The notes under the pieces: generated by a model
Seen by the model: the letters and a program-made list of their open reading frames with translations, nothing else
Database searches by the model: none
Told to the model about the DNA's origin: nothing
NCBI GenBank assembly: GCA_016788425.1
Contig: JAEURQ010000004.1
Location: forward strand, 1 to 64,000
Direction: 5' to 3'
Length of the DNA: 64,000 nucleotides
From: Chthonomonas sp.
GTDB lineage: Bacteria > Armatimonadota > Fimbriimonadia > Fimbriimonadales > Fimbriimonadaceae
Translations under genes and position numbers: made by a program
Shown: piece by piece, positions 4,128 through 60,479 of the stretch
Layout of the letters: the number at the start of each line of letters is the position of its first letter
Position numbering within the stretch: position 1 is the first letter of the stretch

Positions 4128-5250
4128 GAAGGCGTTCTAGCCCATTCACGGCATCGGATTCCAGTGCCGGAACAAGGTGAACGTAAGTGTCGGCGGTCAA
4201 ACTGATTTGCGAGTGCCCGAGGACATCAGAAACAGTCTTGATGCTCACTCCAGATTGAAGCATCAATGTTGCCGCAGAATGCCGCAGATCATGAACTCGG
4301 ATTCTTGGCTCTTCGATACGGTCCATGAGTTCATCGAGAATTCGTCCGACCTTCCTCGGATCGAGCGGTGTACCGATTGAAGAAGTAAAGACGTGTCCGC
4401 TGTCAACCCATTCAGACCACTCTTCCTTAAGCTGCAACTGACGCTCTCGCTGTGCCCGGAGTCGTTGCACGAGGATATCCGGGAGCCTCATTGTCCGCTT
4501 TGACTTTTGGGTCTTCAGTTGGGTTAGCAATAGAACCCCATTTTCGTATTGAAGTTGGCCCAACACTTGGACTGTTCCTTCTTCAAAATTGACTGCTTCC
4601 CACTTCAACCCGAGTGCTTCCCCTTTCCTCAAGCCAAGGGTAAGAATGGTCTGTATTAGCAATCCTTGGGGATGATCATTGCAGGCGGCAATCAACTTGA
4701 CAGCGACTTCGTCTCGCAGTGCTGAAGCGGTCTTGTGCTCCACTCTTGGCGATTTCGTCTTTCGAACAACGTTTTGCGTGAGGAGGTCGTCTCTAAACGC
4801 CTGTTCGAGCATGTTGTTGAGAACAATCCGAATGATTCGAATTGTATTCGCTGACTTGCCTTGCTTTTCGTGGAGCCGAAACAGGTTCACGACTGATTCA
4901 CGCGTGATGGCACTCAGCTTCAGACTCCCTAGGTACGGACGAATGTAGCTTTCGACCATGAGTTGGTAGCTCCGATACGTTGAAGGCCGCACTTCGGATT
5001 GACGTTCGTTCAGCCACTGCGTGAGGTACTCGCTTACCGTTGGTTCCTGTTTGGAAAGGTCCTTGCCGCGTCCTCGTTGGCGGTTCATTTCTTCGAGCCA
5101 CTTATTGCCTTCAACCTTTGTTTTTGCGTTGAAGGTCTTGTGACGAGTTTTGCCCTCGGCGTCCTTGACCTCTATGCGACAAAACCAAATGTCTCCTTTC
5201 TTCGTGATAGAACCTGAACCTTTCGCTCGACGGTTTGTTGTACGTTTCAT
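4111..5250 (-). CDS. Tyrosine site-specific recombinase (phage-type integrase)
   Basis: A 379-residue integrase. The N-terminus (about 10-60) looks like an arm-binding domain, residues 70-165 form the SAM-like core-binding domain, and the rest is the catalytic domain. The catalytic set is readable: R208 in TLGLRKGEALGL, probably K246, H320-x-x-R323 in VHDLRHSAAT, H346 in LGHS and Y356 in ADTYVH. It should excise and integrate the element carrying 1-8900, most plausibly at the 3' end of tRNA-Lys at 8901. Its start overlaps the stop of the upstream 324-aa gene (TAATG), so they form one transcript. Confidence 0.93.
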   Translation of the reverse strand: MKRTTNRRAKGSGSITKKGDIWFCRIEVKDAEGKTRHKTFNAKTKVEGNKWLEEMNRQRGRGKDLSKQEPTVSEYLTQWLNERQSEVRPSTYRSYQLMVESYIRPYLGSLKLSAITRESVVNLFRLHEKQGKSANTIRIIRIVLNNMLEQAFRDDLLTQNVVRKTKSPRVEHKTASALRDEVAVKLIAACNDHPQGLLIQTILTLGLRKGEALGLKWEAVNFEEGTVQVLGQLQYENGVLLLTQLKTQKSKRTMRLPDILVQRLRAQRERQLQLKEEWSEWVDSGHVFTSSIGTPLDPRKVGRILDELMDRIEEPRIRVHDLRHSAATLMLQSGVSIKTVSDVLGHSQISLTADTYVHLVPALESDAVNGLERLLNGKS

Positions 5251-49202: not shown

Positions 49203-50600
49203 GTGCGTCGCTACGGAATCGAAACGGAATACGGCTTTTTGGTGGAGGGCCATGGCGCCGCCGACCAAGTGGAGCTGGCGCGCGACGCCGTGCGCCTCGC
49301 CCCCGGCTTTGCCGACCGCTGGGATTACTCGCGCGAGCATCCGCGCCGCGATCTGCGCGGGTTCTCGGTCGAGGCGCTGCAGGTGGATCCCACCGACTGG
49401 AAGTTTGAGGAAGGCTCCCGCGCCCGCCAAAGCAGCGCCGATACTCGCGCCGACCGCGTGCTGTCGAGCGGGGCCCGGTTCTACAACGATCACGGCCACC
49501 CGGAGTTCGCCACGCGCGAATGCGCGACCCTCGCCGAACTCGTGGCCCAAGACCGCGCCGGAGAGGAATTCGTGCGGCAGGTGTGCGCGCTCTACGCGCA
49601 ACAGAGCGGGCGACGAGTTGAGGTCTACAAGAACAACACCGACTTTCACGGCGCAAGCTACGGCACCCACGAGAACTACTTGGCGCCGCGCCACCTCGGA
49701 TTCGATGGCCTCGCGCCGGTGCTCATCCCCATGCTCATCGCGCGCACTGTGCTCTGCGGCGCGGGAAAGGTTGGGCGCGAGGCGGGCCCGGAATGCGACT
49801 TCCAGCTCAGTGCGCGGGCCGACTTTTTCTCCGAGACCGCGAGCGTGGACACGCTCTTCAAGCGACCCTTGATGAACACGCGCGACGAGCCGCACGCGCC
49901 GGAGAACGACTGGATTCGGGTGCACGTGATTACCGGCGACGCCAACATGATGCCCGGTTGCACCGCCCGCAAGGTCGCGTTGGCGCAGCTCGCGCTGGAT
50001 CTGGCCGCGCAAGGGTGGAAGCCGCCACGCCTGGAGAATCCGGTGGCCGCGTTTCAGCAGGTCAGCCGCGAGGAATGTTTCCGGCTCGCGGATGGAAGCT
50101 TCGAAACCGCCGATGGGCTGCTGTGGCGATACTTGGACGCCGCGGGCGAGGCCCCGATCGCGCACCATTGTCGCCGACTGCTGGACTTGCTCGCCGAAGA
50201 TTGGCGTCTGGCCGCGCCCGAGATTGATTGGGCGGCGAAGCGCTTCCTTATTGAGCACGCAGGCACGGATTCGTTGGCCGAGCAGCGCTCGCTCGACCTG
50301 GCGTATCACTCGCTGGACCCGGAAACCAGCCTGTACGCGGGTCTGGAGGGGAGCGGCTGGGTTGCCAACCCCGCCTTGCCCAATGAGCCAAAGGTCATCA
50401 CCCGCGGCCAGGTTCGCGGACACTTCGTCAGCCAGTTTGCGGAGGCCGTGGAGGCGGTCACGTGGTCGGCGATACGGTTGCGCGGCGGCCGCACGATTGA
50501 ATTGCGGATCGAAACCGATTACCCCGCGTCCATCTTGGCGACATCTGACGTAGAATCGTGTATATCCTTAACGGAACAAGCCCATGGGAATTCAAGCTGA
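49203..50600 (+). CDS. Dop/PafA-family ligase-deamidase of the UBact system
   Basis: 465 residues of the carboxylate-amine ligase fold shared by Pup ligase PafA and deamidase Dop. Mg/ATP-binding E7 and E9 lie in YGIETEYG, and the likely catalytic D96 in GARFYNDHGHPEF. KNNTDFHGASYGTHENYL and ADFFSETASVDTLFKRPLMNTRDEPHA are closer to Dop than to PafA. It would activate or remove the ubiquitin-like tag encoded next. The GTG start has AAGGA directly against it, too close for a ribosome site; a leaderless start is possible. It overlaps the UBact gene by 17 bases. Confidence 0.88.
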   Translation: MRRYGIETEYGFLVEGHGAADQVELARDAVRLAPGFADRWDYSREHPRRDLRGFSVEALQVDPTDWKFEEGSRARQSSADTRADRVLSSGARFYNDHGHPEFATRECATLAELVAQDRAGEEFVRQVCALYAQQSGRRVEVYKNNTDFHGASYGTHENYLAPRHLGFDGLAPVLIPMLIARTVLCGAGKVGREAGPECDFQLSARADFFSETASVDTLFKRPLMNTRDEPHAPENDWIRVHVITGDANMMPGCTARKVALAQLALDLAAQGWKPPRLENPVAAFQQVSREECFRLADGSFETADGLLWRYLDAAGEAPIAHHCRRLLDLLAEDWRLAAPEIDWAAKRFLIEHAGTDSLAEQRSLDLAYHSLDPETSLYAGLEGSGWVANPALPNEPKVITRGQVRGHFVSQFAEAVEAVTWSAIRLRGGRTIELRIETDYPASILATSDVESCISLTEQAHGNSS

Positions 50601-50769
50601 TCGACGAACAATGCCGGGAATGCCGGAGCCCGAGCGCAAGCTGGGCGACGAGAGTGGCCCGAGCAAACCCGACCTGAAAAAGCCGGCGCTGCCCAACGAA
50701 CTGCTGCGCCGCATGAAGAATGTTGACCCCGACCAGGCGAAGAAGTACCGCCAGCGATCGGGCGAATGA
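50584..50769 (+). CDS. Ubiquitin-like protein UBact
   Basis: 61 residues, polar and Pro-rich, almost certainly disordered: MPEPERKLGDESGPSKPDLKKPALP, then LLRRMKNVDPDQAKKYRQRSGE. The C-terminal RQRSGE, ending in Glu, is the hallmark of UBact, a Pup relative attached to target lysines through its terminal glutamate. A ready-made Glu needs no deamidation, so the upstream enzyme may act mainly as ligase or depupylase. It is wedged between dop-like and prcB with overlaps on both sides. Confidence 0.88.
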   Translation: MGIQADRRTMPGMPEPERKLGDESGPSKPDLKKPALPNELLRRMKNVDPDQAKKYRQRSGE

Positions 50770-51488
50770 CGTTTCAACAGCTCGTCAAGTGGCGGCCCTC
50801 GCCGCTCTCGCCGGAGGTTCCGGATACGCATGGCACCACGGTTATCGCCTTGCGCTATGCCGAGGGTGTGGTGATTTTGGCCGACCGCCGCGCCACCATG
50901 GGCAACCTCATCATGTACGATCAGGCCGAGAAAATCGGCGCGATTGACAACTCCACCTTGCTCGCCATCAGCGGGTCGTTTGCCCGCGCCATCGAGGCGA
51001 TTCGTATGCTGAAGCACAGCTTTAAGTATTATCGCCGCGCGCAGATGGTCGAGATGTCGGTGGAGGGCAAGCTGCAGGAAATTGGCCGCAGTGTGGCTGC
51101 CAATATGGCCGCCAGCATGGAGGGCGTGGGCATCTACATCCCCATTGTGGCCACCTACGACAAGCCAAAAGACGAGTTTTTGATCTACTTCTTCGATGGC
51201 GCCGGGGCGCGGTTTCCGCACCCTCACTACGCCGCGGCGGGGAGCGGCTCGGAGCGGATTCGCGGGATGTTTGACTATATCACGCGCACCAAACCGGCTT
51301 GGGAAAAGCGGCCTTTGGCCGATGTGTTGGGCGATGGCCTGACCATGCTGGACATCGCCGCGGATTTGGATTCGGCGACCGGCGGCTGGAACAAGGTGCT
51401 CCCTTCGGCTTATGTGCTCACCCGCGAGGGCGCGGCAAAGGTGGAAGATGCGGTTCTGCGAAAAGCCGCGGACGCGGCGCGGAGATAG
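50766..51488 (+). CDS. prcB: 20S proteasome beta subunit
   Basis: 240 residues. A propeptide of 23 residues ends HG|TTVIALRY; T24 becomes the catalytic Thr1, D40 (ILADRR) matches Asp17 and K56 (DQAEKIG) matches Lys33, so the active site is intact. The rest follows the Ntn-hydrolase fold (SGSFARAIEAIRMLKH, AAAGSGSERIRGMFDY). It overlaps the UBact gene by 4 bases. The alpha subunit, a second ligase and the Mpa/ARC ATPase are not in the window. Confidence 0.9.
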   Translation: MTFQQLVKWRPSPLSPEVPDTHGTTVIALRYAEGVVILADRRATMGNLIMYDQAEKIGAIDNSTLLAISGSFARAIEAIRMLKHSFKYYRRAQMVEMSVEGKLQEIGRSVAANMAASMEGVGIYIPIVATYDKPKDEFLIYFFDGAGARFPHPHYAAAGSGSERIRGMFDYITRTKPAWEKRPLADVLGDGLTMLDIAADLDSATGGWNKVLPSAYVLTREGAAKVEDAVLRKAADAARR

Positions 51489-51495
51489 GGCGGTT

Positions 51496-52011
51496 ATGCA
51501 CTTTGACCTCGTGCCGATTGGGGACGTAGATGTTCAGCTCGCGGCCAAGATCGCGACCCTGCAAGACGGAACGCGCGAATGGCGCGGCGAATTCGAGTCC
51601 ATGTCGCCCGAAGAACTGACCTGGCAGCCCTATCCGGACGGGCCGAGCATCGGCGGCTGCATCTTGCACATGGCGGGTTGCGAGGCCTGGTGGCTTCAGG
51701 CGGTGGTGCGCGGCGAGGAACTCGACGCGTCGAATCCGGCGATCGCTTATGATGCAGCGCTGGACCAAGATAACCACGTGTGGCCGACTCCGCCCGCCGA
51801 AAGTCCGGAGTGGTACTTTGACATTCTTTCCGCGCAACGCGAGAAGACGATTGCTCTCATCACGGAGCACAACGATCCGGACTCGGTGCATGTCCGCCCA
51901 AGCGGAAACTCGTTTACGTTTCGCTGGATTGTGGCACGCCTTGTGCAACACGATTCGTATCACGGTGGGCAGTGCGTGATGCTCCACGAAATGTGGAAAA
52001 AGCGCGGTTAG
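51496..52011 (+). CDS. DinB-family metal-dependent protein
   Basis: 171 residues of the DinB/YfiT four-helix fold: LTWQPYPDGPSIGGCILHMAGCEAWWLQAVV, then FTFRWIVARLVQHDSYHGGQCVMLHEMW. The likely metal-ligand histidines are in LHMAG and HDSYH. Members include bacillithiol S-transferases and many uncharacterised enzymes. It starts 7 bases after prcB, so it may be co-transcribed. It converges on the DUF1287 gene with a 4-base overlap. Confidence 0.85.
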   Translation: MHFDLVPIGDVDVQLAAKIATLQDGTREWRGEFESMSPEELTWQPYPDGPSIGGCILHMAGCEAWWLQAVVRGEELDASNPAIAYDAALDQDNHVWPTPPAESPEWYFDILSAQREKTIALITEHNDPDSVHVRPSGNSFTFRWIVARLVQHDSYHGGQCVMLHEMWKKRG

Positions 52012-52625
52012 GCTTTAACAACGCGATAATGGCCGATCATGCGCCAAGCGAATAGCACGTCCTCAAACTGCGTGCCACGCCCGATGTTGTGTACCATCAG
52101 CGGCGTCACGCCATCGTTCGCAAACTGGTTGGTGACCATTCCGGTGTGAGCGCGGCCATCCTTCAGCCGCCAAGTCACGATATCTCCCGCGCGAAAATCG
52201 CTCGGCTTGTTGGATAGTGGAAGGCTATAGCCTTTGCGCGAAAACCACACTTCGAGGTTAAGCACGCGGCGATGATCGATGTTGCGATCGGGCTTGCGCA
52301 AACCCCAGTTTTGCGGATACTTGTTAAAGTGTTTCGCCATGTCCTCATGGAGTTCCTTTTGCAGATCGATATTGGCCGCGCGCAGCGCGCGCACAATCAC
52401 ATCCGCGCACACCCCGCGCTCCATCGGCACATCGCCGCCGGGGTACTTGAGCTGCACGTAAGCCGGGTCGTAGAACTTGGTCAGCCGCGCCTGCTCCTTC
52501 GCACTGATCATCACCGCCGACTCGCGCTCGGTCATCGGGGTTTGGCGCGTCGTCGTCGTCTTCGTTTGCTGGCAGGCAACGAGGACGAGTGCCGCCGCTC
52601 CGAGGCAAAGGGTTCCGAGTTTCAT
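52008..52625 (-). CDS. DUF1287 lipoprotein (NlpC/P60-like)
   Basis: 205 residues. The signal ends with a lipobox, ALVLVAC (Cys as lipid anchor). The DUF1287 domain follows: YPGGDVPMERGVCADVIVRALRAANIDLQKELHEDMAKHF, DRNIDHRRVLNLEVWFSRKG, RAGDIVTWRLKDGRAHTGMVTN, MVHNIGRG. The Cys in GVCAD and the His in GRAHTGM suit an NlpC/P60-type Cys/His amidase. It is probably an envelope hydrolase. The ATG at 52625 is used; the longer frame runs into the repeat at 52694. Confidence 0.85.
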   Translation of the reverse strand: MKLGTLCLGAAALVLVACQQTKTTTTRQTPMTERESAVMISAKEQARLTKFYDPAYVQLKYPGGDVPMERGVCADVIVRALRAANIDLQKELHEDMAKHFNKYPQNWGLRKPDRNIDHRRVLNLEVWFSRKGYSLPLSNKPSDFRAGDIVTWRLKDGRAHTGMVTNQFANDGVTPLMVHNIGRGTQFEDVLFAWRMIGHYRVVKA

Positions 52626-52693
52626 GAGGGTCCTGATGATAGGATACTTGAGGTTGCCAAACGCGCATTGGCCATACCTTCCTTGCTTCCTTG

Positions 52694-52774
52694 CGGCAGC
52701 CCGAGCCCCCGTCTGGGCAAAGCGACTAGCGTGAGCGTAGTCGCGCGGGCGTGGCAAGTGGGCAGACGGGGGCG
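52694..52774. repeat. Palindromic cassette repeat, copy 1
   Basis: CGGCAGCC (52694-52701) begins the copy. The outer stem is GCCCCCGTCTG (52705-52715) / CAGACGGGGGC (52763-52773), 11 bp perfect. The inner stem is GCGACTA/TAGTCGC (52722-52728, 52738-52744) around GCGTGAGCG. The arms are joined by GGCAAA on the left and GCGGGCGTGGCAAGTGG on the right. It is one of five copies in the next 6 kb. Confidence 0.92.
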
Positions 52775-52816
52775 GGCCAGATAAGATAAGAGAGTTGTAA
52801 AAAGTCGCTCAGGAAC

Positions 52817-52904
52817 TTGCTCCGTCACAACTCTATTGCTATACTGGCTATAGGTGGAGCACGTCGCAGTGCGAAACCTGAGGTTTTGAAAGTGTGCTCT
52901 CCAC
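52817..52904 (+). promoter_or_regulatory. Cassette 1 promoter and structured leader
   Basis: TTGCTC (52817-52822), 17 bases, TATACT (52840-52845). The leader has GTGGAG (52854-52859) / CTCCAC (52899-52904) and, as an alternative overlapping register, GAGCAC (52857-52862) / GTGCTC (52894-52899). The 3' arm covers the region just after a GTG start at 52892, which has GAGG 8 bases upstream. The same arrangement follows repeat copies 2 and 3. Confidence 0.7.
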
Positions 52905-53176
52905 AGCCTGAACGGGACCAACTTCTCCTCTACTATAGGGCCATCATTGGTCACAGCGAGCTTGCGGAATTGGTATCATCAGTTGAAATTGAGGATGGCA
53001 AGAACGGACTTCAGCTGGTGCTTGTGTTCCGATACGCACCTACGACTGAAGATATTGAGGATGCTGACGTTACCGTGACTGAACTCTACGCTAGCTTTCC
53101 AAGCCTACAACATATCGACCTTGCGATTATTCATGGGGACAAGGTTTGGCAAGTGCCAGATTGCCTGAACGACTAG
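52892..53176 (+). CDS. Cassette 1 protein, unknown, 94 aa
   Basis: A small soluble acidic protein with GHSELAELVSSVEIEDGKNGLQLVLVFRYAPTTEDIEDADV and IDLAIIHGDKVWQVPDCL; probably a compact alpha/beta fold. No family is recognised. I chose the GTG at 52892 because it lies in the position of the leader start codons of cassettes 2 and 3 and is downstream of the promoter; TTG at 52886 is possible. The size and acidity would suit an immunity-type protein, but that is only a guess. Confidence 0.5.
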   Translation: MCSPQPERDQLLLYYRAIIGHSELAELVSSVEIEDGKNGLQLVLVFRYAPTTEDIEDADVTVTELYASFPSLQHIDLAIIHGDKVWQVPDCLND

Positions 53177-53183
53177 CAATTAC

Positions 53184-53540
53184 ATGTGGTGGTTAAGTGG
53201 AATTTTGCCGAACTACGAGGTGCTGCTCTACAGCGCCTTTATCCTATGCTTTGTCTTAGGGCCAGGGATGATGTACCTAGTGATTATTCTCCTCAGTGCA
53301 TCTATACTGCCATTGATTCTGGTGACGTGGAAGGCTCTGCGCAAGAAAGGCACTCGCTGGTCCGAATGGCTGCTCGCGGTGTTCATCTTCTTTAGTTGGC
53401 TTCAGCCGTTTGTCCCTCAAGACCCGTCGTTCCTCCTGCCAAATATCTTGCTCCTCTACTTAGGAACCATACTGGCTTACACGTACATCTCGAAAACGAC
53501 CAACTGGTTTAAGAAATCGTCCAAGCAGAGCAAGGTCTAG
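53184..53540 (+). CDS. Cassette 1 small membrane protein
   Basis: 118 residues with three or four hydrophobic segments: LLYSAFILCFVLGPGMMYLVIILLSASILPLILVTW, then WLLAVFIFFSWLQPFV and LLPNILLLYLGTILAYTYI, ending in a basic tail. It starts 7 bases after the preceding stop. The family is unknown. Low GC and no ribosome site of note. Confidence 0.55.
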   Translation: MWWLSGILPNYEVLLYSAFILCFVLGPGMMYLVIILLSASILPLILVTWKALRKKGTRWSEWLLAVFIFFSWLQPFVPQDPSFLLPNILLLYLGTILAYTYISKTTNWFKKSSKQSKV

Positions 53541-53768
53541 GGATTGTTGAAGTACAACCGTTTCCTCAGATTCGTGTGTCGTACAGTACTGGCCCATCCG
53601 CGATCCTCGCTGCTGCACCTACGAGGACCGGGCGGTTTGTGTCGCCACTCTCTTGGCGAATGCATTCGGAGCGCTGATCGATTGGGCATGATACGAACAC
53701 TTCACTCGCGAAAGCCCGAGCTAGTACCGAGGCAAAGCGAGTAACGAGTAGGGTGCGCTCTCCAAGCG
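53541..53768. other. Intergenic stretch before repeat copy 2
   Basis: There is no convincing gene here. GC rises toward the repeat. A segment near 53730-53750 reads GAGGCAAAGCGAGTAACGAG and resembles the centre of the cassette repeat, so it may be a decayed copy. Confidence 0.3.
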
Positions 53769-53848
53769 CCGCAGCCTCAGCCCCCGTCTGGGCAAAGCGA
53801 CGAGCGAAGCGTGGTCGCGCGGGCGTGGCAAGTGGGCAGACGGGGGCG
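53769..53848. repeat. Palindromic cassette repeat, copy 2
   Basis: The outer stem GCCCCCGTCTG (53780-53790) / CAGACGGGGGC (53837-53847) is identical to copy 1. The inner stem is changed to GCGACGA/TGGTCGC, keeping five pairs (GCGAC/GTCGC) around GCGAAGCG. The total core is 68 bp, one less than the others. Confidence 0.92.
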
Positions 53849-53872
53849 GCGCACAAAAAGTCCTCCAGAAAG

Positions 53873-53987
53873 TTGTTTCGCCACAACTCAGTTGCTATAC
53901 TGACATTTGTGGAGCGCGTTGCAGAACGAAATTGGAGGTGTTGACATTGCGCGCTCAACAGCCTGGTCCGGACGGAGGTAGTTAAAC
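53873..53987 (+). promoter_or_regulatory. Cassette 2 promoter, structured leader and leader peptide
   Basis: TTGTTT (53873-53878), 17 bases, TATACT (53896-53901). GAGCGCG (53912-53918) pairs with CGCGCTC (53950-53956). A TTG at 53947, 8 bases after GGAGG, opens a 12-residue frame ending in TAA at 53983-53985, two bases before the ATG of the next gene. Compared with cassette 1, both arms changed but pairing is kept. Confidence 0.65.
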
Positions 53988-54668
53988 ATGAGAAGGTTTG
54001 CCCTGCTTGTTGCTTGCAGTTGTGCGTCGTTCGCTTTGGCGAAAACGCCCGAACAGCTGTTCATCGAACAGCGCTTTGACCAAATCAAATCCATGAAGGC
54101 ACCGCCGAAACAGAACCAGTTCAGCACAGTGGTGTACCGATTTTCACGGGTGCAAGGTGAAAAGGGAAGACTGAAGCACATAAAGGAGTATCTTACAGCC
54201 CTTCGACCTCATTTTGACTTAAACAGCAGTTCATTCAGAGGGGGAGAAGATTCGGACCGCAAAGTCGAGGCGATTATGGCTTCGGTTAAATTTCTTACGG
54301 TTAAATATCAGAGTACTGAAGCATTCAATTGTTTCTTTCAGATGACATCCGATGGTGCGATTGCCGAGTATTGGGACGAGGAGGTTCGAGTTGCTGTATG
54401 CGGCAGCTACGCCGCAGTGAATGAGTACTTGAAGCAGAATCCTAAAAAGTATCGTGACTTGCTCTATACGTTGAGCGTATATGGCCCGCCACCGGAATCA
54501 CAGCGAAAAACTGTACCTATCTCGTTGAGCATTGCGAGGCGCAAAAAGCTCGTCCACTATGAAAGGCTCATGAAGGACTGGTTGAAGGTCAAAAGTGAGT
54601 TCGGGGATAAGTGGTGGCTAACGTCATTTTTGCCATATTCGAATTGCTCTTCATCCGTGCAAGTTTAG
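53988..54668 (+). CDS. Cassette 2 exported protein, unknown, 226 aa
   Basis: The signal peptide RRFALLVACSCASFALAK is followed by a soluble, mostly helical domain (EQLFIEQRFDQIKSMKAPP, then HIKEYLTALRPHFDL, CFFQMTSDGAIAEYWDEEVRVAVCGSYAAVNEYLKQNPKKYRDLLYTLSVYGPP). No family is recognised. The region around 100-160 resembles helical-repeat proteins loosely. A ribosome site (ACGGAGG) lies 13 bases upstream, at the end of the leader peptide frame. Confidence 0.6.
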   Translation: MRRFALLVACSCASFALAKTPEQLFIEQRFDQIKSMKAPPKQNQFSTVVYRFSRVQGEKGRLKHIKEYLTALRPHFDLNSSSFRGGEDSDRKVEAIMASVKFLTVKYQSTEAFNCFFQMTSDGAIAEYWDEEVRVAVCGSYAAVNEYLKQNPKKYRDLLYTLSVYGPPPESQRKTVPISLSIARRKKLVHYERLMKDWLKVKSEFGDKWWLTSFLPYSNCSSSVQV

Positions 54669-54678
54669 TTAGCACACC

Positions 54679-55014
54679 ATGTACGGCATAACTCTCGGAC
54701 CCCGCGCATTTATTAGCATTTTCGAATCCAGTGCAATAGAGTTATTGGCGATATCTGCGCTGGCAGTGGGCGGTTTGATTAACTTAGTTTATCTGACTAA
54801 ACTCTCGCGGGCAGCAAGGGTGCAAGACCCGATCACAGCACGCCGTGCGAAGAAGGCGCTTGCGTTTGTGGGTATCGGCGCAGTCGCCTTCTTACTCGCG
54901 CCAGATCCTCCCGGACTTGGGTTGCACTGGCTCGATGGGGTCTTTGCCCTGTATCTGGCTGCCTGTTCCATTGCTCATCTAAGGGTCTTTTCGAGTGGGT
55001 TGCATAGAACGTGA
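54679..55014 (+). CDS. Cassette 2 small membrane protein
   Basis: 111 residues with three hydrophobic segments: IELLAISALAVGGLINLVYLTKL, KKALAFVGIGAVAFLLAPDPPGLGLHWLDGVFALYLAACSIAHL. It starts 10 bases after the preceding stop. The order soluble or exported protein followed by a small membrane protein is the same as in cassette 1. The family is unknown. Confidence 0.5.
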   Translation: MYGITLGPRAFISIFESSAIELLAISALAVGGLINLVYLTKLSRAARVQDPITARRAKKALAFVGIGAVAFLLAPDPPGLGLHWLDGVFALYLAACSIAHLRVFSSGLHRT

Positions 55015-55066
55015 CGGTGAGTGCTTTCCAAAGCGACCCCAAACGTTGCCCCAGCCTCCTATCTCG

Positions 55067-55147
55067 CGGCAGCCTCAGCCCCCGTCTGGGCAAAGCGACT
55101 AGCGCAAGCGTAGTCGCGCGGGCGTGGCAAGTGGGCAGACGGGGGCG
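55067..55147. repeat. Palindromic cassette repeat, copy 3
   Basis: CGGCAGCC (55067-55074), the outer stem GCCCCCGTCTG (55078-55088) / CAGACGGGGGC (55136-55146), and the inner stem GCGACTA/TAGTCGC around GCGCAAGCG. It is nearly identical to copies 1 and 5. Confidence 0.93.
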
Positions 55148-55184
55148 GCGCATATAAGAGAGATATAAAAAGCTCTCCAGGAAC

Positions 55185-55275
55185 TTGTTCTGCTAGAGCG
55201 CGGTTGCTATAATGAGTTGAGCCTACGGATATTCATGATCAGGTCAAAGCGCAACATGTCGAACTCAACAAGATC
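55185..55275 (+). promoter_or_regulatory. Cassette 3 promoter, structured leader and leader peptide
   Basis: TTGTTC (55185-55190), 17 bases, TATAAT (55208-55213). GTTGAG (55216-55221) pairs with CTCAAC (55264-55269). A small frame MSNSTRS begins at ATG 55256, just 5' of the 3' arm, and its stop overlaps the ATG of the next gene (ATGA at 55276-55279). The layout matches cassettes 1 and 2. Confidence 0.65.
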
Positions 55276-55701
55276 ATGATTCATTCAGGGATTGCAACGT
55301 CCGTTTTGTCAGACCATATTTACTGGCCCTCCACAAATTTCCTTATCTTCATTGGCTTGGGCAGTTTGCTCGTGCGATGGTACGTTTCAAGAGTCGTTCA
55401 ACATGTCGAAGCAAATTCAAAGAGTAATGCAAATAGAGTCGGGCTTGATGTTTCTGAATTTTTTCCAGATTTAGTCATTCGGAAAAGGCAAGTGCTATAC
55501 TTCTTCTTAGTTGCAGTTGTCACATTTGTTTGCGTGGACTTCTTCTCGAAACGGAATTCTCATCTTGATCAGTCATTGGTTAATCTGTTGGTTTTGATTT
55601 TGTTTTCGGTGATGCTCTCTTATGCCGTGCTAACCTTTCCTCATTGTTCTCTAGCCAAACTTGTTATTGAACCAGCTAAGAATCCTGAAGAGGTTAGATA
55701 A
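55276..55701 (+). CDS. Cassette 3 membrane protein, 141 aa
   Basis: Membrane segments: FLIFIGLGSLLVRWYVSRVV, VLYFFLVAVVTFVCVDFF and LVNLLVLILFSVMLSYAVLTFPHCSLA. A cytoplasmic charged loop (about 45-70) lies between the first two. No family is recognised. It is translationally coupled to the leader peptide just upstream. Confidence 0.55.
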   Translation: MIHSGIATSVLSDHIYWPSTNFLIFIGLGSLLVRWYVSRVVQHVEANSKSNANRVGLDVSEFFPDLVIRKRQVLYFFLVAVVTFVCVDFFSKRNSHLDQSLVNLLVLILFSVMLSYAVLTFPHCSLAKLVIEPAKNPEEVR

Positions 55702-55702
55702 G

Positions 55703-55984
55703 ATGATATTGAGCACTGCAGTGCTGTTTCTGGGTGCAGTCCCTTACTTGCTCGTGGGTTCCTCCGAAGGGAGATCTGGGTCTCGTGCTAAGAATTGGCT
55801 TCTTGCGAGTGGAATGGTTGCGTTATCCTACTCGTCATTCTTCCTGAGCTTGTGTGCGTTGGTATCGTGGAGAAGCCAGGTAAATCCTTCCTTTGCTCCC
55901 AATGGTGGGCCAGAATCCCTGGAAACATTTCGACATGCGTCGGGTTCTGGTGCATTGTTGCTACTTGCTTTTGGTGTATCATGA
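55703..55984 (+). CDS. Cassette 3 small membrane protein, possibly frameshifted
   Basis: 93 residues: ILSTAVLFLGAVPYLLVGSSEGRSGSRAKNWLLASGMVALSYSSFFLSLCALVSW, then a loop and the start of another hydrophobic segment (GALLLLAFGVS) where the frame ends. A plausible continuation in another frame follows at once (55990-56106), so the gene may be broken. The start is the ATG at 55703, next to the previous stop. Confidence 0.5.
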   Translation: MILSTAVLFLGAVPYLLVGSSEGRSGSRAKNWLLASGMVALSYSSFFLSLCALVSWRSQVNPSFAPNGGPESLETFRHASGSGALLLLAFGVS

Positions 55985-55989
55985 CATGA

Positions 55990-56106
55990 ACCATTTTCAA
56001 TTGGGCGCGAGTAGGCCTTCGCATTTTATGTGGACCGTTCGCGGGCATGATGCTCGGAGTACCTATTGCCGGCACGATGCCGGAGTTTCTATATCTCGGA
56101 ACTTAA
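55990..56106 (+). pseudogene. Possible displaced C-terminus of the 55703 gene
   Basis: In a different frame from the 55703 gene, 38 residues without a good start codon read ARVGLRILCGPFAGMMLGVPIAGTMPEFLYLGT and a stop. The sequence looks like a natural membrane-protein end rather than random translation. A frameshift near 55980 would join it to the preceding hydrophobic segment. Sequencing error or decay are both possible. Confidence 0.25.
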
Positions 56107-56142
56107 TATGTCACCCCCTTATTGTGATCAACAGCTGACGGG

Positions 56143-56430
56143 ATGGCCGCCGAAGCCGCCCTCCAAACATTTCGTCTTCCAAGTTCTTGGAATAGTAGCA
56201 CTGTGAAGTTTATATTTCCTGCCGTATTTGTCGTTTCAATTTTCGTAAGCAGTTTTCTTATCGCTAGAAAGTTGGTGCGTGGTGACAAAGCGAATATGCA
56301 ACTGCTCTTCGGGCACGCCCTTTCCGTCTTGCCAGCTTTTGTAATGCCGGATGCAGTTCTTACATATATGTGGGGTTTGCTTTGGGCGTGGACGTGGAGC
56401 GTCGTTCTGGTCCACACGGAGAGCAGATGA
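56143..56430 (+). CDS. Cassette 3 small membrane protein, 95 aa
   Basis: Hydrophobic segments VKFIFPAVFVVSIFVSSFLIA and LLFGHALSVLPAFVMPDAVLTYMWGLLWAWTWSVVLV. No family is recognised. It overlaps the next gene by 4 bases (ATGA), indicating co-translation. No clear ribosome site before the ATG. Confidence 0.5.
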   Translation: MAAEAALQTFRLPSSWNSSTVKFIFPAVFVVSIFVSSFLIARKLVRGDKANMQLLFGHALSVLPAFVMPDAVLTYMWGLLWAWTWSVVLVHTESR

Positions 56431-56663
56431 GCCCATCGCAGATTGGAATTACCGGGATTGTTGGCGCTACGCTCCTCATCAATATCTGGTTGGCTAGGCC
56501 AAGAGCCTTGAAGTTTGTTTGCGTCTGTCTTGGAGTTGCTGTCAGTTTTTGGCTGTGGAACTTGCCCACTGAGGGAGCGATGCTTGCGCACGGCTTCGGT
56601 GCTTTCGTCATATCCTATTGTGCTATCTTTATCCAAACGCGAGCCTACTTCAGAAGAAAATGA
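56427..56663 (+). CDS. Cassette 3 small membrane protein, 78 aa
   Basis: Three short hydrophobic segments: IGITGIVGATLLINIWLA, FVCVCLGVAVSFWLW and HGFGAFVISYCAIFI, ending YFRRK. The start is within the stop of the preceding gene. The family is unknown; with its partner it may be a two-protein membrane unit. Confidence 0.5.
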   Translation: MSPSQIGITGIVGATLLINIWLARPRALKFVCVCLGVAVSFWLWNLPTEGAMLAHGFGAFVISYCAIFIQTRAYFRRK

Positions 56664-56715
56664 TATGATCACGGCAGCTAGATTTAATAGACTCCTGACA
56701 AAGGAGGTGTAAACG

Positions 56716-57114
56716 ATGAGCAGTTACATGGAGCAGTTACCGTCAAGAGCGATGGTAGATTTGATGGACGGACAATACGTGCTGCCATTCATTGCGATCG
56801 GCGCCTTTCTGTTGGTTTCGTTCACATGTTTGTTGATCTTCCTCGTTGCCCGAGCTTGCATCGCGAAGCATTGTCGATCTGTCTGGTCCGCGATTGCCAT
56901 CGCCATCGGATGTTGCCAATGGCTACTCCTCTGCATCTGGCCCCTCGGGCCCCTGGGGGGCGCCATGGTTTTCGGTGACGCGCTTTTGCTTGTTTCCCTG
57001 ATCATCGGATTTTATGTCGGCACCAAAGGATTCTTGTGCACGCGCGTCAAGCCTCGCTCGCATCTGGGAGTGCTTGGGCAACACGACTCCATGGGTGAAG
57101 GTATGAGGGACTAG
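56716..57114 (+). CDS. Cassette 3 membrane protein, 132 aa
   Basis: Three membrane helices: FIAIGAFLLVSFTCLLIFLVARA, WSAIAIAIGCCQWLLLCIWPL and AMVFGDALLLVSLIIGFYVG, then a polar tail. An excellent ribosome site AAAGGAGGTG lies before the ATG, unlike the other cassette genes. Function is unknown. GC is somewhat higher than in its neighbours. Confidence 0.6.
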   Translation: MSSYMEQLPSRAMVDLMDGQYVLPFIAIGAFLLVSFTCLLIFLVARACIAKHCRSVWSAIAIAIGCCQWLLLCIWPLGPLGGAMVFGDALLLVSLIIGFYVGTKGFLCTRVKPRSHLGVLGQHDSMGEGMRD

Positions 57115-57119
57115 AGGCG

Positions 57120-57452
57120 ATGACAAAGTGGTGGATCGTGGCAAATTTGAACGAAGCGATTGAACAGCTGCAAGACATTGTTACTAGACTTGAGGAGGGT
57201 GATACTGATGAAGATGGCCTCCGGTATGATTTGGGTCATGCATACTATCACATCAACGCAGCCTACAATGGGCGCCATTTAGTTGGTCTTGATGAAAAAG
57301 AGTTTTGGGACCAAAAGGATCCGTTCAGAACACTACGACCCTTCCCAAGGGATCTTCCGAAAACATATGGGGGATGGTTTTCTAGAGCGAAACCGGTCCT
57401 ACCTCCCATTCGAGGAGGCGAGGGTGGATCGGAACCGAAGGGCCTTGAGTAG
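57120..57452 (+). CDS. Cassette 3 soluble protein, 110 aa
   Basis: The N-terminal half is a helical hairpin (LNEAIEQLQDIVTRLEEGDTDEDGLRYDLGHAYYHINAAYNGRH) and the C-terminal half is Pro-rich (RTLRPFPRDLPKTYGGWF). It starts 5 bases after the preceding stop. Small acidic helical proteins like this occur among immunity proteins, and the next gene is one, but I cannot place it in a family. Confidence 0.55.
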   Translation: MTKWWIVANLNEAIEQLQDIVTRLEEGDTDEDGLRYDLGHAYYHINAAYNGRHLVGLDEKEFWDQKDPFRTLRPFPRDLPKTYGGWFSRAKPVLPPIRGGEGGSEPKGLE

Positions 57453-57473
57453 GATTGCAATAGGAAGAATCTG

Positions 57474-57836
57474 ATGACGACTAAAACTCTAGTTTTTGCG
57501 ATGGGCTTGTTGTGTGGCGGCGCCATGGTCATGGCCGAGCCCGATCGCCCGCCGAAAGACGGCTACGTCCCGAACGAGCGAACCGCCATTGCGATCGGTG
57601 TGGCGGTGGCGGAAAACGTGTTTGGAAAAGGCCTTGTCGAAAAGCAGAAGCCGCATCAGGCGGAGCTGGAGAAAGGGGTCTGGATGGTTTCAGGAAGCCT
57701 GCCACCACCCGAGGTGCTCCCCAACGGCGACAGAAAAGTTTGGGTGGGCGGCACGTTCGAGGTTTTTCTGAACAAGTCGGATGGCCGCATCCTCAAGGTC
57801 ATTCATAGCTTGTACGGACTTACAAGTACGGGATAA
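57474..57836 (+). CDS. NTF2-fold immunity protein, exported
   Basis: 120 residues with a signal peptide (LVFAMGLLCGGAMVMA). The body matches the NTF2-fold immunity family: GYVPNERTAIAIGVAVAENVFGKGLVEKQKPHQAELEKGVWMVSGSLP, then GGTFEVFLNKSDGRILKVIHS. Such proteins neutralise toxins of polymorphic or contact-dependent systems. No toxin is encoded nearby, so this looks like an orphan immunity gene. It is last in cassette 3. Confidence 0.75.
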   Translation: MTTKTLVFAMGLLCGGAMVMAEPDRPPKDGYVPNERTAIAIGVAVAENVFGKGLVEKQKPHQAELEKGVWMVSGSLPPPEVLPNGDRKVWVGGTFEVFLNKSDGRILKVIHSLYGLTSTG

Positions 57837-57892
57837 GCGAATTGCTATCCTTCACATCGGAACTAGCACTCACTCCCTAGCTGCCTTTCCCG

Positions 57893-57924
57893 CGGCAGCC
57901 CCAGCCCCCGTCTGGGCAAAGCGA
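57893..57924. repeat. Cassette repeat, copy 4: left half only
   Basis: CGGCAGCC (57893-57900), then GCCCCCGTCTGGGCAAAGCGA (57904-57924), then it stops exactly where the inner palindrome begins. The right half is missing and is replaced by GTGACCGGTACACTGG, whose TACACT (57933-57938) may be the -10 of the next gene. Confidence 0.85.
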
Positions 57925-57949
57925 GTGACCGGTACACTGGAAGGCAGTC

Positions 57950-58501
57950 ATGGGGAGCGGCAAATCTCGTCAAAGAAAGCTAAAGCAGTTTCTTTACTTG
58001 GAGTGGAACGAAGAGTCTCGATCTTACGTGCGTGAAGAGCTCCAAAAGTTGGAAATTCTGCCTAAGTGGAACGGCATGTATGCGCTCGGTATACGGAAAG
58101 GACACTCACTCAAGAATGCTTCACTGGATGAGATCATGGCGAGTCTGGATGATTACGCCATGGCGGGCCTCGCTGCCGCCGCTGAAATCGTGGCCGATCC
58201 GCGAAACGGTGGACTCTTTAATGGCGTAGCGATCGGGGGCAACTCCGACGGCGAAACGTTGGCAATTCAAGCCAAGATACGGTACACCGTAAAGTATTGG
58301 GAGAACGATAGTGACTATTACGGCGAATTTTTGTTGTGTGTAGGGAAGGTCAGCCCGGAGACTTATGGTCTCCACTGCGAGGCTAGGTCGTATCAGGAAG
58401 TTCGAGATTGGAGCCGCAAGCCGCTTTTCTCCCAAAAGGTTGTGAAGAGACTGCGCGCCGAGCTTGGCATTGATGATTCCAATCGGCCGCGGCAGCCTTA
58501 G
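57950..58501 (+). CDS. Cassette 4 protein, unknown, 183 aa
   Basis: A soluble protein: basic N-terminus (GSGKSRQRKLKQFLYLEW), helical middle (SLDEIMASLDDYAMAGLAAAAEIVADP), then a beta-rich part (GNSDGETLAIQAKIRYTVKYWENDSDYYGEFLLCVGKVSPETYGLHCEARSYQEVRDW). No family is recognised. Its last residues and TAG stop lie in repeat copy 5 (from 58490), so the natural C-terminus may have been replaced by the repeat. A -10-like TACACT lies 11 bases before the ATG. Confidence 0.6.
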   Translation: MGSGKSRQRKLKQFLYLEWNEESRSYVREELQKLEILPKWNGMYALGIRKGHSLKNASLDEIMASLDDYAMAGLAAAAEIVADPRNGGLFNGVAIGGNSDGETLAIQAKIRYTVKYWENDSDYYGEFLLCVGKVSPETYGLHCEARSYQEVRDWSRKPLFSQKVVKRLRAELGIDDSNRPRQP

Positions 58502-58570
58502 CCCCCGTCTGGGCAAAGCGACTAGCGCAAGCGTAGTCGCGCGGGCGTGGCAAGTGGGCAGACGGGGGCG
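58490..58570. repeat. Palindromic cassette repeat, copy 5
   Basis: CGGCAGCC (58490-58497), the outer stem GCCCCCGTCTG (58501-58511) / CAGACGGGGGC (58559-58569), and the inner stem GCGACTA/TAGTCGC around GCGCAAGCG. It is the last copy. It supplies the stop codon of the 183-aa gene and lies 64 bases before the typA -10 box. Confidence 0.93.
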
Positions 58571-58639: not shown

Positions 58640-58646
58640 TCTGTCT

Positions 58647-60479
58647 ATGCCCCCCGCCATTCGCAACATCGGCATTATCGCGCACGTCGACCACGGAAAA
58701 ACGACCCTGGTAGACGCCATTTTCCGTCAAGCCGGTCTGTTCCGCGAAAACCAACACGTCGCCGAACGCGTGATGGACTCCAACGATTTGGAGCGCGAAA
58801 AGGGCATCACCATTCTTTCCAAGGTCGCCAGCGTGCGCTACAAGGGCGTGAAAATCAACATCGTTGACACCCCCGGCCACGCCGATTTCGGCGGCGAAGT
58901 CGAGCGTGTGCTCAGCATGGTGGATGGCGTGCTGCTCATCGTCGACGCCAACGAGGGCCCCAAACCGCAAACCCGATTTGTCCTGCGCAAGGCGTTCGAT
59001 AACAAGCTCAAGCCGGTGGTCTGCGTCAACAAGGTGGACCGCGAAGGCGCCCGCCCGCTGGAGGCCTACGACAAAACTCTCGACCTGTTTATCGATCTCG
59101 GCGCCAACGAAGACGACCTGTTTTTCCCGCACCTCTACACCAGCGGCGCGTCCGGCTTTGCCCGTTCGGAACCGAACGGGAAAGAAACCGATATGCGCGA
59201 GCTGTTCGAGATGATCGTCAACGCGATCGCCCCGCCCGAAGCTGACCTCGACGCCCCATTTTTGCTGCAAGTCAACAACCTCGATTACAGCGAGTACCTC
59301 GGTCGCATGTTCGGTGGCAAGGTCATCCGCGGCAAGATCAAGGTAGGGGATCGCATGGAGCACCAACGCGAGGGCTCCGATAAGCGAATCGGCTTCAACG
59401 TCACCAAGCTTTGGATCTACGAAGGCATCCAACTGAAGGAAGTGGAGCAGGTGGAAGCCGGCGAAATCGTCATGCTTAGTGGCCTCAGCGACGTGCTCAT
59501 CAGCGACACCATCAGCGTGCCGGATACCACGCCGCCGCTGCCGAGCATCAAGGTCGAGCCGAGCACCCTGACCATGAACTTTTACGCCAACAACTCGCCG
59601 CTGGCCGGCAAAGATGGCGGCAAGTTCCTGACCATCCACAAGATCAAGGAGCGCATCGAAAAGGAAGAGGCGGTCAGCGTGAGCATTAAGCTGGACAAGG
59701 GTTCCGCGGCCGATACGGTGAAGGTTTCCGCGCGCGGCGAACTGCAGCTGGCGATCCTGATTGAAACCATGCGCCGCGAGGGTTACGAAATGCAGATTAG
59801 CCGCCCGCAGGTTATCTTTAAGCGCGACGAGCAAGGCGACCTTACCGAGCCCTACGAAGTGGTGGCGTTGGAAATGCCGGACGATTCGCTCGGTACCGTC
59901 ATGGAAGACCTGGCCCGCCGACGCGGCGAACTGCGCGACATGGCCAGCCAAGAAAACGGCACCACCCGTGTGGAATATCACATTCCCACGCGCGGCCTCA
60001 TCGGGTTCCGCTCGAACTACCTCACCATGACCCGCGGTCTGGGCATTGCCAACTCGATTTTCGATGGCTATCACCCGTACAAGGGCGAAGTCGAAAGCCG
60101 CTCGCAAGGCGCGCTCATCGCCAAGGATCCGGGCAAAATCACCCGCTACGCCTACGAAGATGTGCAGGAGCGCGGGACGATGTTCTACGAAGTCAGCACC
60201 GAGGTGTACGGCGGCATGATCATCGGCGCGTGCTCGCGCGATGAGGATATGGTGGTGAACATCACCAAGCAAAAGGCGGCCACCAACATGCGCTCGGCCA
60301 ACGCCGATTCGACCACGGTTTTGGATCAGCACCGCGACTTTTCGCTGGAGCAAGCTCTCGGCTGGCTTCGCGATGACGAGCTGCTCGAGGTGACGCCGAA
60401 GATGCTGCGCTTCCGCAAGAAGGTTCTGGATCATAGCGAGCGCCGTGTGATCGAGCGTCGAGCCGAACTCCCGGTGTAG
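58647..60479 (+). CDS. typA: Ribosome-associated GTPase TypA/BipA
   Basis: 610 residues. The G domain has AHVDHGKTT, the switch [10 protein letters not shown] and NKVD. EF-G-like domains III and V follow, with the TypA-specific C-terminal domain ([71 protein letters not shown]). TypA helps ribosome assembly under stress. The gene lies just past the cassette array and probably marks its chromosomal edge. Confidence 0.96.

Follow-up and report, generated by a model that had tools for sequence, protein, structure and literature searches.

Introduction

Orphan immunity genes are known to stand in arrays, both in the type VI secretion system (T6SS) context of Vibrio cholerae (PMC5361080) and in poly-immunity loci (PMC3482391), and Imm-NTF2-2 genes as well as poly-immunity loci have been described beside RHS toxins (PMC3482391). 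In Bacteroidales, the recombinase-associated acquired interbacterial defence (rAID) arrays represent a further described form of such gene rows (PMC12247911). Here, we analyzed a stretch of 64,000 nucleotides from Chthonomonas sp. (Armatimonadota, Fimbriimonadaceae; assembly GCA_016788425.1, contig JAEURQ010000004.1, positions 1 to 64,000), hereafter referred to as the window, in which copies of a hairpin repeat divide a row of small genes at 52.7-58.6 kb into blocks. Our observations suggest that this region is probably an orphan array of polymorphic-toxin (Rhs-type) immunity genes, punctuated by a lineage-specific dispersed hairpin.

Among the described systems, the rAID arrays appear to be the closest in layout, as they share with the window array co-oriented short genes (about 100-300 codons in rAID), a GC content below that of the genome, a conserved intergenic motif, and, putatively here, orphan immunity genes. 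However, rAID arrays carry a tyrosine recombinase at their start and are defined by a GC content <41%, whereas no PF00589 match lies within either of the two arrays that we describe and the blocks of the window array have GC contents of 49.5-52.6%; besides, the intergenic motif takes here the form of a hairpin that covaries and belongs to a dispersed family, and the phylum differs. Because the defining recombinase and the GC level of rAID are lacking, we do not file the array under this name. With the poly-immunity loci and the V. cholerae T6SS orphan arrays, the likeness lies in heterogeneous rows of putative immunity genes, one set of which stands here directly behind an Rhs gene, and in the presence of the Imm-NTF2-2 family. 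The module borders, in contrast, consist here of a hairpin and a promoter-like header, and the cited portions of PMC3482391 and PMC5361080 describe no such hairpin.

A Hairpin-Punctuated Array of Small Genes

A 69-bp hairpin occurs four times in full and once as a half copy in the window array, always on the + strand (table 1). An initial annotation, made from the sequence alone, had reported five repeats of about 80 bp, including one half copy: their coordinates were recovered, the 19-mer CCCCGTCTGGGCAAAGCGA occurs five times in the window against 0.02 times expected from dinucleotide shuffles, and the hairpin with its 13-nt common 5′ flank (cGCGGCAGCCTCA) measures about 82 bp. The same annotation described an invariant 11-bp outer stem, which is indeed exact in the four full copies, and a 7-bp inner stem, which is present in three of them but not in R2, where it amounts to 5 bp and a mismatch. 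The repeats split the array into four blocks of 1006, 1230, 2757, and 576 bp, whose respective GC contents (50.7, 50.1, 49.5, and 52.6%) are about nine points lower than those of the left (59.7%) and right (61.0%) flanks, and the plausible genes between the repeats are all encoded on the + strand, in agreement with the four low-GC blocks of small co-oriented genes first reported.

One of these genes matches the Imm-NTF2-2 immunity protein profile PF15631 well above its cut-off (table 1). The remaining genes of the window array have no family in Pfam or NCBIfam, about half of them are predicted to encode transmembrane (TM) segments, and sequence searches of the PDB with two array proteins returned no match.

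A Second Array Downstream of an Rhs Gene

A BLAST search of the repeat over the 2.67-Mb assembly returned 12 close copies, five in the window and seven outside it: three at C2:782.9-788.3 kb (L015), a tandem pair at C2:19.3 kb, and single copies at C2:36.5 kb and C3:119.4 kb; the outer stem of the last one differs in sequence (GCCCCGCCGG/CCGGCGGGGC) but is still paired throughout. Eight of the 12 lie in two arrays, namely the window array and the one at C2:782.9-788.3 kb (array 2). Array 2 immediately follows an Rhs gene (L015 2841-6758; PF05593, 5.2e-54, Rhs_assc_core), ends near dnaE and, as in the window, is made of small lowered-GC genes in a row and in a single orientation.

In these two arrays, the hairpins mark the boundaries of modules. 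Relative to their genes, the eight array copies all point the same way, and no difference over 69 nt separates R3, R5, and the three array 2 copies, although they are spread over two contigs. The blocks following R1, R2, and R3 in the window and R6 and R7 in array 2 open with a homologous header of about 60-95 bp, in which TTGCTATA.TG is invariant, while the final repeat of either array has no header; R1 and its header are 85% identical over 170 bp to R6 and its header (C2:782881-783050). We base the promoter-like reading of the header on its being shared between blocks, since terminator and promoter consensus scans within the array gave no more matches than shuffles.

From the PF15631 match and the Rhs-linked sister array, with which the window array has a gene and the header in common, we infer that both arrays are polymorphic-toxin immunity arrays, in which the small proteins of the other genes, soluble or membrane-bound, would mostly be immunity proteins directed against toxins of kin or neighbours. 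The initial view of the blocks as accessory gene modules in a cassette-like layout is supported. Several points nevertheless weigh against the immunity-array reading. An immunity profile was found in only one of about 11 genes of the window array, the rest being without family, and single-sequence AlphaFold2 models of two array proteins, of 183 and 226 amino acids (aa), were too poor for a fold search (predicted local distance difference test [pLDDT] scores of 38.7 and 41, respectively). The window array has no Rhs gene in its vicinity, the nearest one on the contig being at about 415 kb, about 350 kb away. In other genomes, the dispersed copies of the element carry no evident cargo, so the link between hairpins and immunity arrays may be genome-specific. 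Finally, the homology of a 118-aa membrane gene common to both arrays ends exactly at the limits of its open reading frame (ORF), its counterpart in array 2 being away from the repeats.

This 118-aa gene (53184-53540) is 83% identical in DNA to its counterpart in array 2 (L015 10176-10532), where it has two further paralogues, one of them truncated just upstream of R6. As the homology covers the ORF only and no repeat adjoins the gene in array 2, genes must also move independently of hairpins. Paralogues of this gene in both arrays, the headers shared by the R1, R2, R3, R6, and R7 blocks, and the tandem duplication evident in a second group of copies (group B, see below) could alternatively reflect the tandem duplication of a single ancestral operon with its upstream hairpin, followed by gene divergence. 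However, the blocks differ in gene number and content and protein homology was detected for the 118-aa family only, and we regard this origin as unlikely.

Independently of the two arrays, a further Rhs locus at G000:C3:500-516 kb (L062) encodes Rhs proteins of 1524, 1578, and 613 aa that are near-duplicates in their repeats. The two largest genes each adjoin a small NifU_N-domain gene, and there is no hairpin element at this locus.

Genes and Borders of the Window Array

The features of the array are collected in table 1. Between 55.7 and 56.7 kb, several overlapping short frames are found, and this stretch may be decayed sequence. As first described, the flanking genes are ordinary and of higher GC content, with Pup ligase/proteasome, DinB-like, and DUF1287 genes on the left (named from sequence only) and TypA and Fpg genes on the right. 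The left neighbours include Pup ligase, Pup-like, and proteasome-like genes (49203-51488, likewise named) of a bacterial proteasome, which adjoin the array. Synteny of the DUF1287-typA interval is not conserved in relatives, one congener included, and this comparison was uninformative.

Table 1. Features of the window array and its borders, in window coordinates
Feature	Position	Strand	Remarks
DUF1287 protein, left border	52008..52625	-	
R1, 5′ flank and hairpin	52692..52773, core 52705-52773	+	array start; upstream of DUF1287 (-)
Block 1 header, promoter-like	52774..52870	+	ends in extended -10 TTGCTATACTG
ORF 119 aa	52817..53176	+	soluble, no family match; longest reading, start uncertain
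ORF 118 aa	53184..53540	+	~3 TM; homologue in Rhs-linked array
Weak degenerate partial copy of element 5′ half	53705..53750	+	
R2 hairpin	53767..53847, core 53780-53847	+	
Block 2 header, promoter-like	53848..53925	+	
ORF 226 aa	53988..54668	+	probable signal peptide; no family match
ORF 111 aa	54679..55014	+	~2 TM; no family above cut-off
R3 hairpin	55065..55146, core 55078-55146	+	
Block 3 header	55147..55222	+	contains TTGCTATAATG
ORF 141 aa	55276..55701	+	~2 TM
ORF 95 aa	56143..56430	+	~1 TM
ORF 132 aa	56716..57114	+	~3 TM
ORF 110 aa	57120..57452	+	soluble; no family above cut-off
Imm-NTF2-2 immunity protein	57474..57836	+	PF15631, 50.9 bits, cut-off 26, E=1.8e-13
R4, 5′ hairpin half only	57891..57924, core 57904-57924	+	without right half, without header
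ORF 183 aa	57950..58501	+	soluble, no family match
R5 hairpin	58488..58569, core 58501-58569	+	last repeat of the array; lacks a header; typA lies downstream
TypA, right border	58641..60479	+	

A Structured Element of the Fimbriimonadaceae

An exact DNA search of 60 relatives found the repeat in this genome only and at first suggested a species-specific repeat, a view that we abandoned when the covariance models labelled R1 and R2 revealed a wider family. Model R1 returned two copies in one relative (G024), and a search for the core pattern returned copies in several genomes of the family, among them Fimbriimonadaceae and Chthonomonas UBA2017/UBA2391, whose outer stems are wholly different in sequence and mostly pair over 7-13 bp. 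Model R2 then placed the element in at least 15 of 85 Fimbriimonadaceae genomes, a lower bound since scoring was limited to 58 candidates per genome. Per-genome counts from the covariance models were capped at 58-120 candidates. Core-pattern matches in other phyla (L091-L094, L103-L105) and on one viral contig lacked an outer stem of similar length, and we took them for chance matches.

Across 60 aligned copies (58 distinct), 92.2% of the cells are paired, and 334 cells carry a change in both partners, compared with 107.6 after shuffling and 58-113 in the slid controls. Fitting the alignment to the structure biases it in favour of that structure, but the excess over the slid controls is very large. 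Compensatory changes affect 11 of 11 outer and 7 of 7 inner pairs, and orthologues aligned with MAFFT display the same pattern of covariation. In 38 nonredundant copies, the core of the internal loop reads GGC on the 5′ side and GGGN(GT)GGC..TGGG on the 3′ side, while the composition of the stems ranges from GC-rich to AT-rich (GTTTTTTGTTCGG/CCGAACAAAAAAT). The hairpin of the window is therefore one form of a structured Fimbriimonadaceae element, whose core is conserved and whose two stems vary freely but pair.

In genus g30, the element occupies an orthologous site in three species, where the surrounding intergenic DNA has diverged and the inner stem has been rebuilt through compensatory changes. 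The hairpin is thus maintained, as a DNA or an RNA structure. This site (G102:C1:2195.6 kb, G103:C1:225.5 kb, G108:C279:8.9 kb; L188-L190) lies downstream of a superoxide-dismutase-like gene.

Strong covariation in both stems and an invariant purine-rich internal loop are also what a structured RNA would display, and the hairpin sits between the end of a block and the promoter of the next, where a cis-acting RNA or insulator, once transcribed, could end or protect transcripts between blocks. However, the repeats lack a T-tract and yielded no terminator calls, the 60 copies are randomly oriented with respect to adjacent genes, and Rfam returned no match over 52.0-59.0 kb at E up to 1 across 4227 families. 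Such a role strikes us as distinctly unlikely.

Distribution within the Genome and among Relatives

In relatives, the element is scattered and intergenic, and by simple ORF calling its orientation to the neighbouring genes is random (17/15/13/13). In this genome, the element is rarely met with outside clusters, as a systematic 400-kb sample held three matches, all in one 1.5-kb cluster. Together with the eight of 12 close copies that lie in two accessory arrays, this departs from an even spread without link to accessory genes, the pattern that the initial annotation had named as contradicting it.

Subfamilies within a genome have uniform stems: GCCCCCGTCTG in group A, AGCCGCGTCGG in group B, and CCCCCTGTCTCT in a relative (G026), and such uniformity of the copies is as expected after recent amplification or conversion. 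Group B, to which the cluster of the 400-kb sample belongs, occurs at C4:214-217 kb, C4:265 kb, and C2:45 kb, in the midst of tandem PEP-CTERM genes; there, hairpin, conserved promoter-like header (GGCTTATACTG), and gene are again fused, but the gene family is another one. These PEP-CTERM genes of ~320 aa are both tandem and dispersed (C4:214-217 kb, L136 5238-8700; C4:264-267 kb, L161; C2:44-46 kb, L014 14777-16991), and some of them are flanked by hairpins in inverted orientation. In G026, seven copies are gathered in 6.5 kb (C4:101-107.5 kb, L137 4053-10460) in both orientations, among ordinary genes near alaS; most of them have the outer stem CCCCCTGTCTCT, beneath which two kinds of inner hairpin occur.

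This distribution bears on a simpler explanation, in which a hairpin akin to repetitive extragenic palindromes (REP) or miniature inverted-repeat transposable elements (MITE) merely accumulates where a gene-rich accessory hot spot offers relaxed intergenic DNA, and the array is built without its involvement. The element is dispersed, intergenic, and orientation-neutral in relatives, and genome-specific subfamilies with uniform stems are expected of recent amplification. Yet random insertion does not predict a single orientation for all array copies, nor the fusion of most of them to a homologous promoter-like header, the 400-kb sample held one cluster only, and group B displays the same fusion of hairpin, header, and gene with a different gene family. 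We regard mere accumulation as rather unlikely.

Comparison with Mobile Palindromes and Integrons

REP and bacterial interspersed mosaic elements (BIME), associated with RAYT (REP-associated tyrosine transposases) (PMC3733652, PMC2817692), resemble the present element in being intergenic palindromes with genome-specific subfamilies in both orientations. The element differs from them in its length of about 70 bp, its pair of stems, and its asymmetric, conserved internal loop, whereas the tagged REP is a 20-40 bp palindrome. The GTAG/CGTC end tag is absent, both motifs being confined to the arms and loop or lying some way off, and no target-site duplications, as a MITE would leave, were evident by eye. 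No Y1 transposase was found in four element-bearing relatives (G003, G024, G098, G002), and the single weak Y1 match of this genome has another kind of repeat array on its flanks, which led us to reject a RAYT as the mobiliser. This lone RAYT-like gene (G000:C1:1052-1330, L107) stands amid short repeats (CGCCGAGACGGCGAAGATACTCG...) and adjoins the apparent 3′ end of a 16S rRNA gene.

Integrons likewise carry imperfect palindromes between small co-oriented genes, with a stem shape that is conserved above sequence; they differ from the present arrays in that each block has here a promoter-like header inside it and that the R′/R″ core sites are missing. Among six PF00589 proteins scanned against NCBIfam, no IntI scored above cut-off, the best being a XerC-like protein with 116 against the cut-off of 265 of TIGR02249; the genome has nine PF00589 matches, and the scan left aside one at C4:471 kb, Xer-like by sequence, and two short ones on C3. 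As for attC, GTTRRRY is absent within 40 bp of 10 copies, and a single isolated RYYYAAC occurs at a lone copy. The window has its nearest tyrosine integrase (381 aa) at 4174-4719 on the - strand, about 48 kb from the array, and this gene has a look of the phage or integrative-conjugative-element type and possibly belongs to an element integrated at the window start.

These results bear out two statements of the initial annotation, namely that no integrase is nearby and that the repeats are neither an integron nor attC sites. Between its two proposals for the repeat, the REP/MITE-like family proved the better half, as we find a dispersed structured element of the Fimbriimonadaceae with 12 close copies here. 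Its gene-capture reading is supported in part only: the repeat as the capture unit is not supported in the form proposed, given a shared gene that is homologous over the ORF only, away from repeats, and dispersed copies without evident cargo.

A site-specific cassette system could still be imagined, in which a distant recombinase would cut and join the hairpin, possibly in single-stranded form as with attC, so that hairpin, header, and genes form a mobile cassette. The arrays have the layout [hairpin-header-genes]n-hairpin, with a header-less last copy in both, the eight array copies have a single orientation relative to their genes, identical copies occur at two loci, the shape of the stem is kept when its sequence is not, as in attC, and two of the nine PF00589 matches of the genome are Xer-like in sequence. 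However, neither array is adjoined by a recombinase, IntI and attC core sites are wanting within the scope given above, copies in relatives lie in any orientation without evident cassettes, and the 118-aa gene common to both arrays lacks bounding repeats. We accordingly judge a cassette system very unlikely. The same low probability applies, in our view, to a bolder version, in which another recombinase or an HUH-type nuclease would act on the constant-core, free-stem hairpin and move hairpin-promoter-gene modules, as an Armatimonadota cassette system separate from integrons; within one and the same genome, its group A arrays would provide immunity genes and its group B arrays PEP-CTERM surface genes.

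The scatter of copies elsewhere in all orientations rather argues for a dispersed hairpin that marks module borders than for a dedicated cassette site. In the immunity-array reading that we prefer, the element would spread as a small nonautonomous DNA hairpin (or be a structured RNA locus), and each header would drive its own block. The near-identical direct copies would then give RecA-type homologous recombination a foothold to duplicate, delete, and exchange hairpin-header-gene modules between arrays, and the half copy R4 without header as well as the truncated gene beside R6 could be junction scars. Recombination at the hairpin is thus plausible. In G102, a 2.45-kb deletion of two genes (an extracytoplasmic function [ECF] sigma-like gene and one for a 580-aa membrane protein) starts at the element or a few tens of bases from it; it is compatible with element-linked recombination but weak, and suggestive only, given how short the intergenic region is and that the other end lacks a second copy.

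Implications

To our knowledge, contact-dependent competition has been little studied in Armatimonadota. Immunity arrays of the rAID kind would be new in this phylum, with the hairpin occupying the place of the recombinase-linked motif of Bacteroidales. The hairpin family is the more novel part of the finding: a new structured element, family-wide and without counterpart in Rfam, in which the sequence of the stems is free while their pairing and the internal-loop core are kept. Such a constant core with free stems raises the question of which protein or process recognises it. If hairpins do mediate the exchange of blocks, these genomes would show how immunity arrays can grow without a resident integrase.

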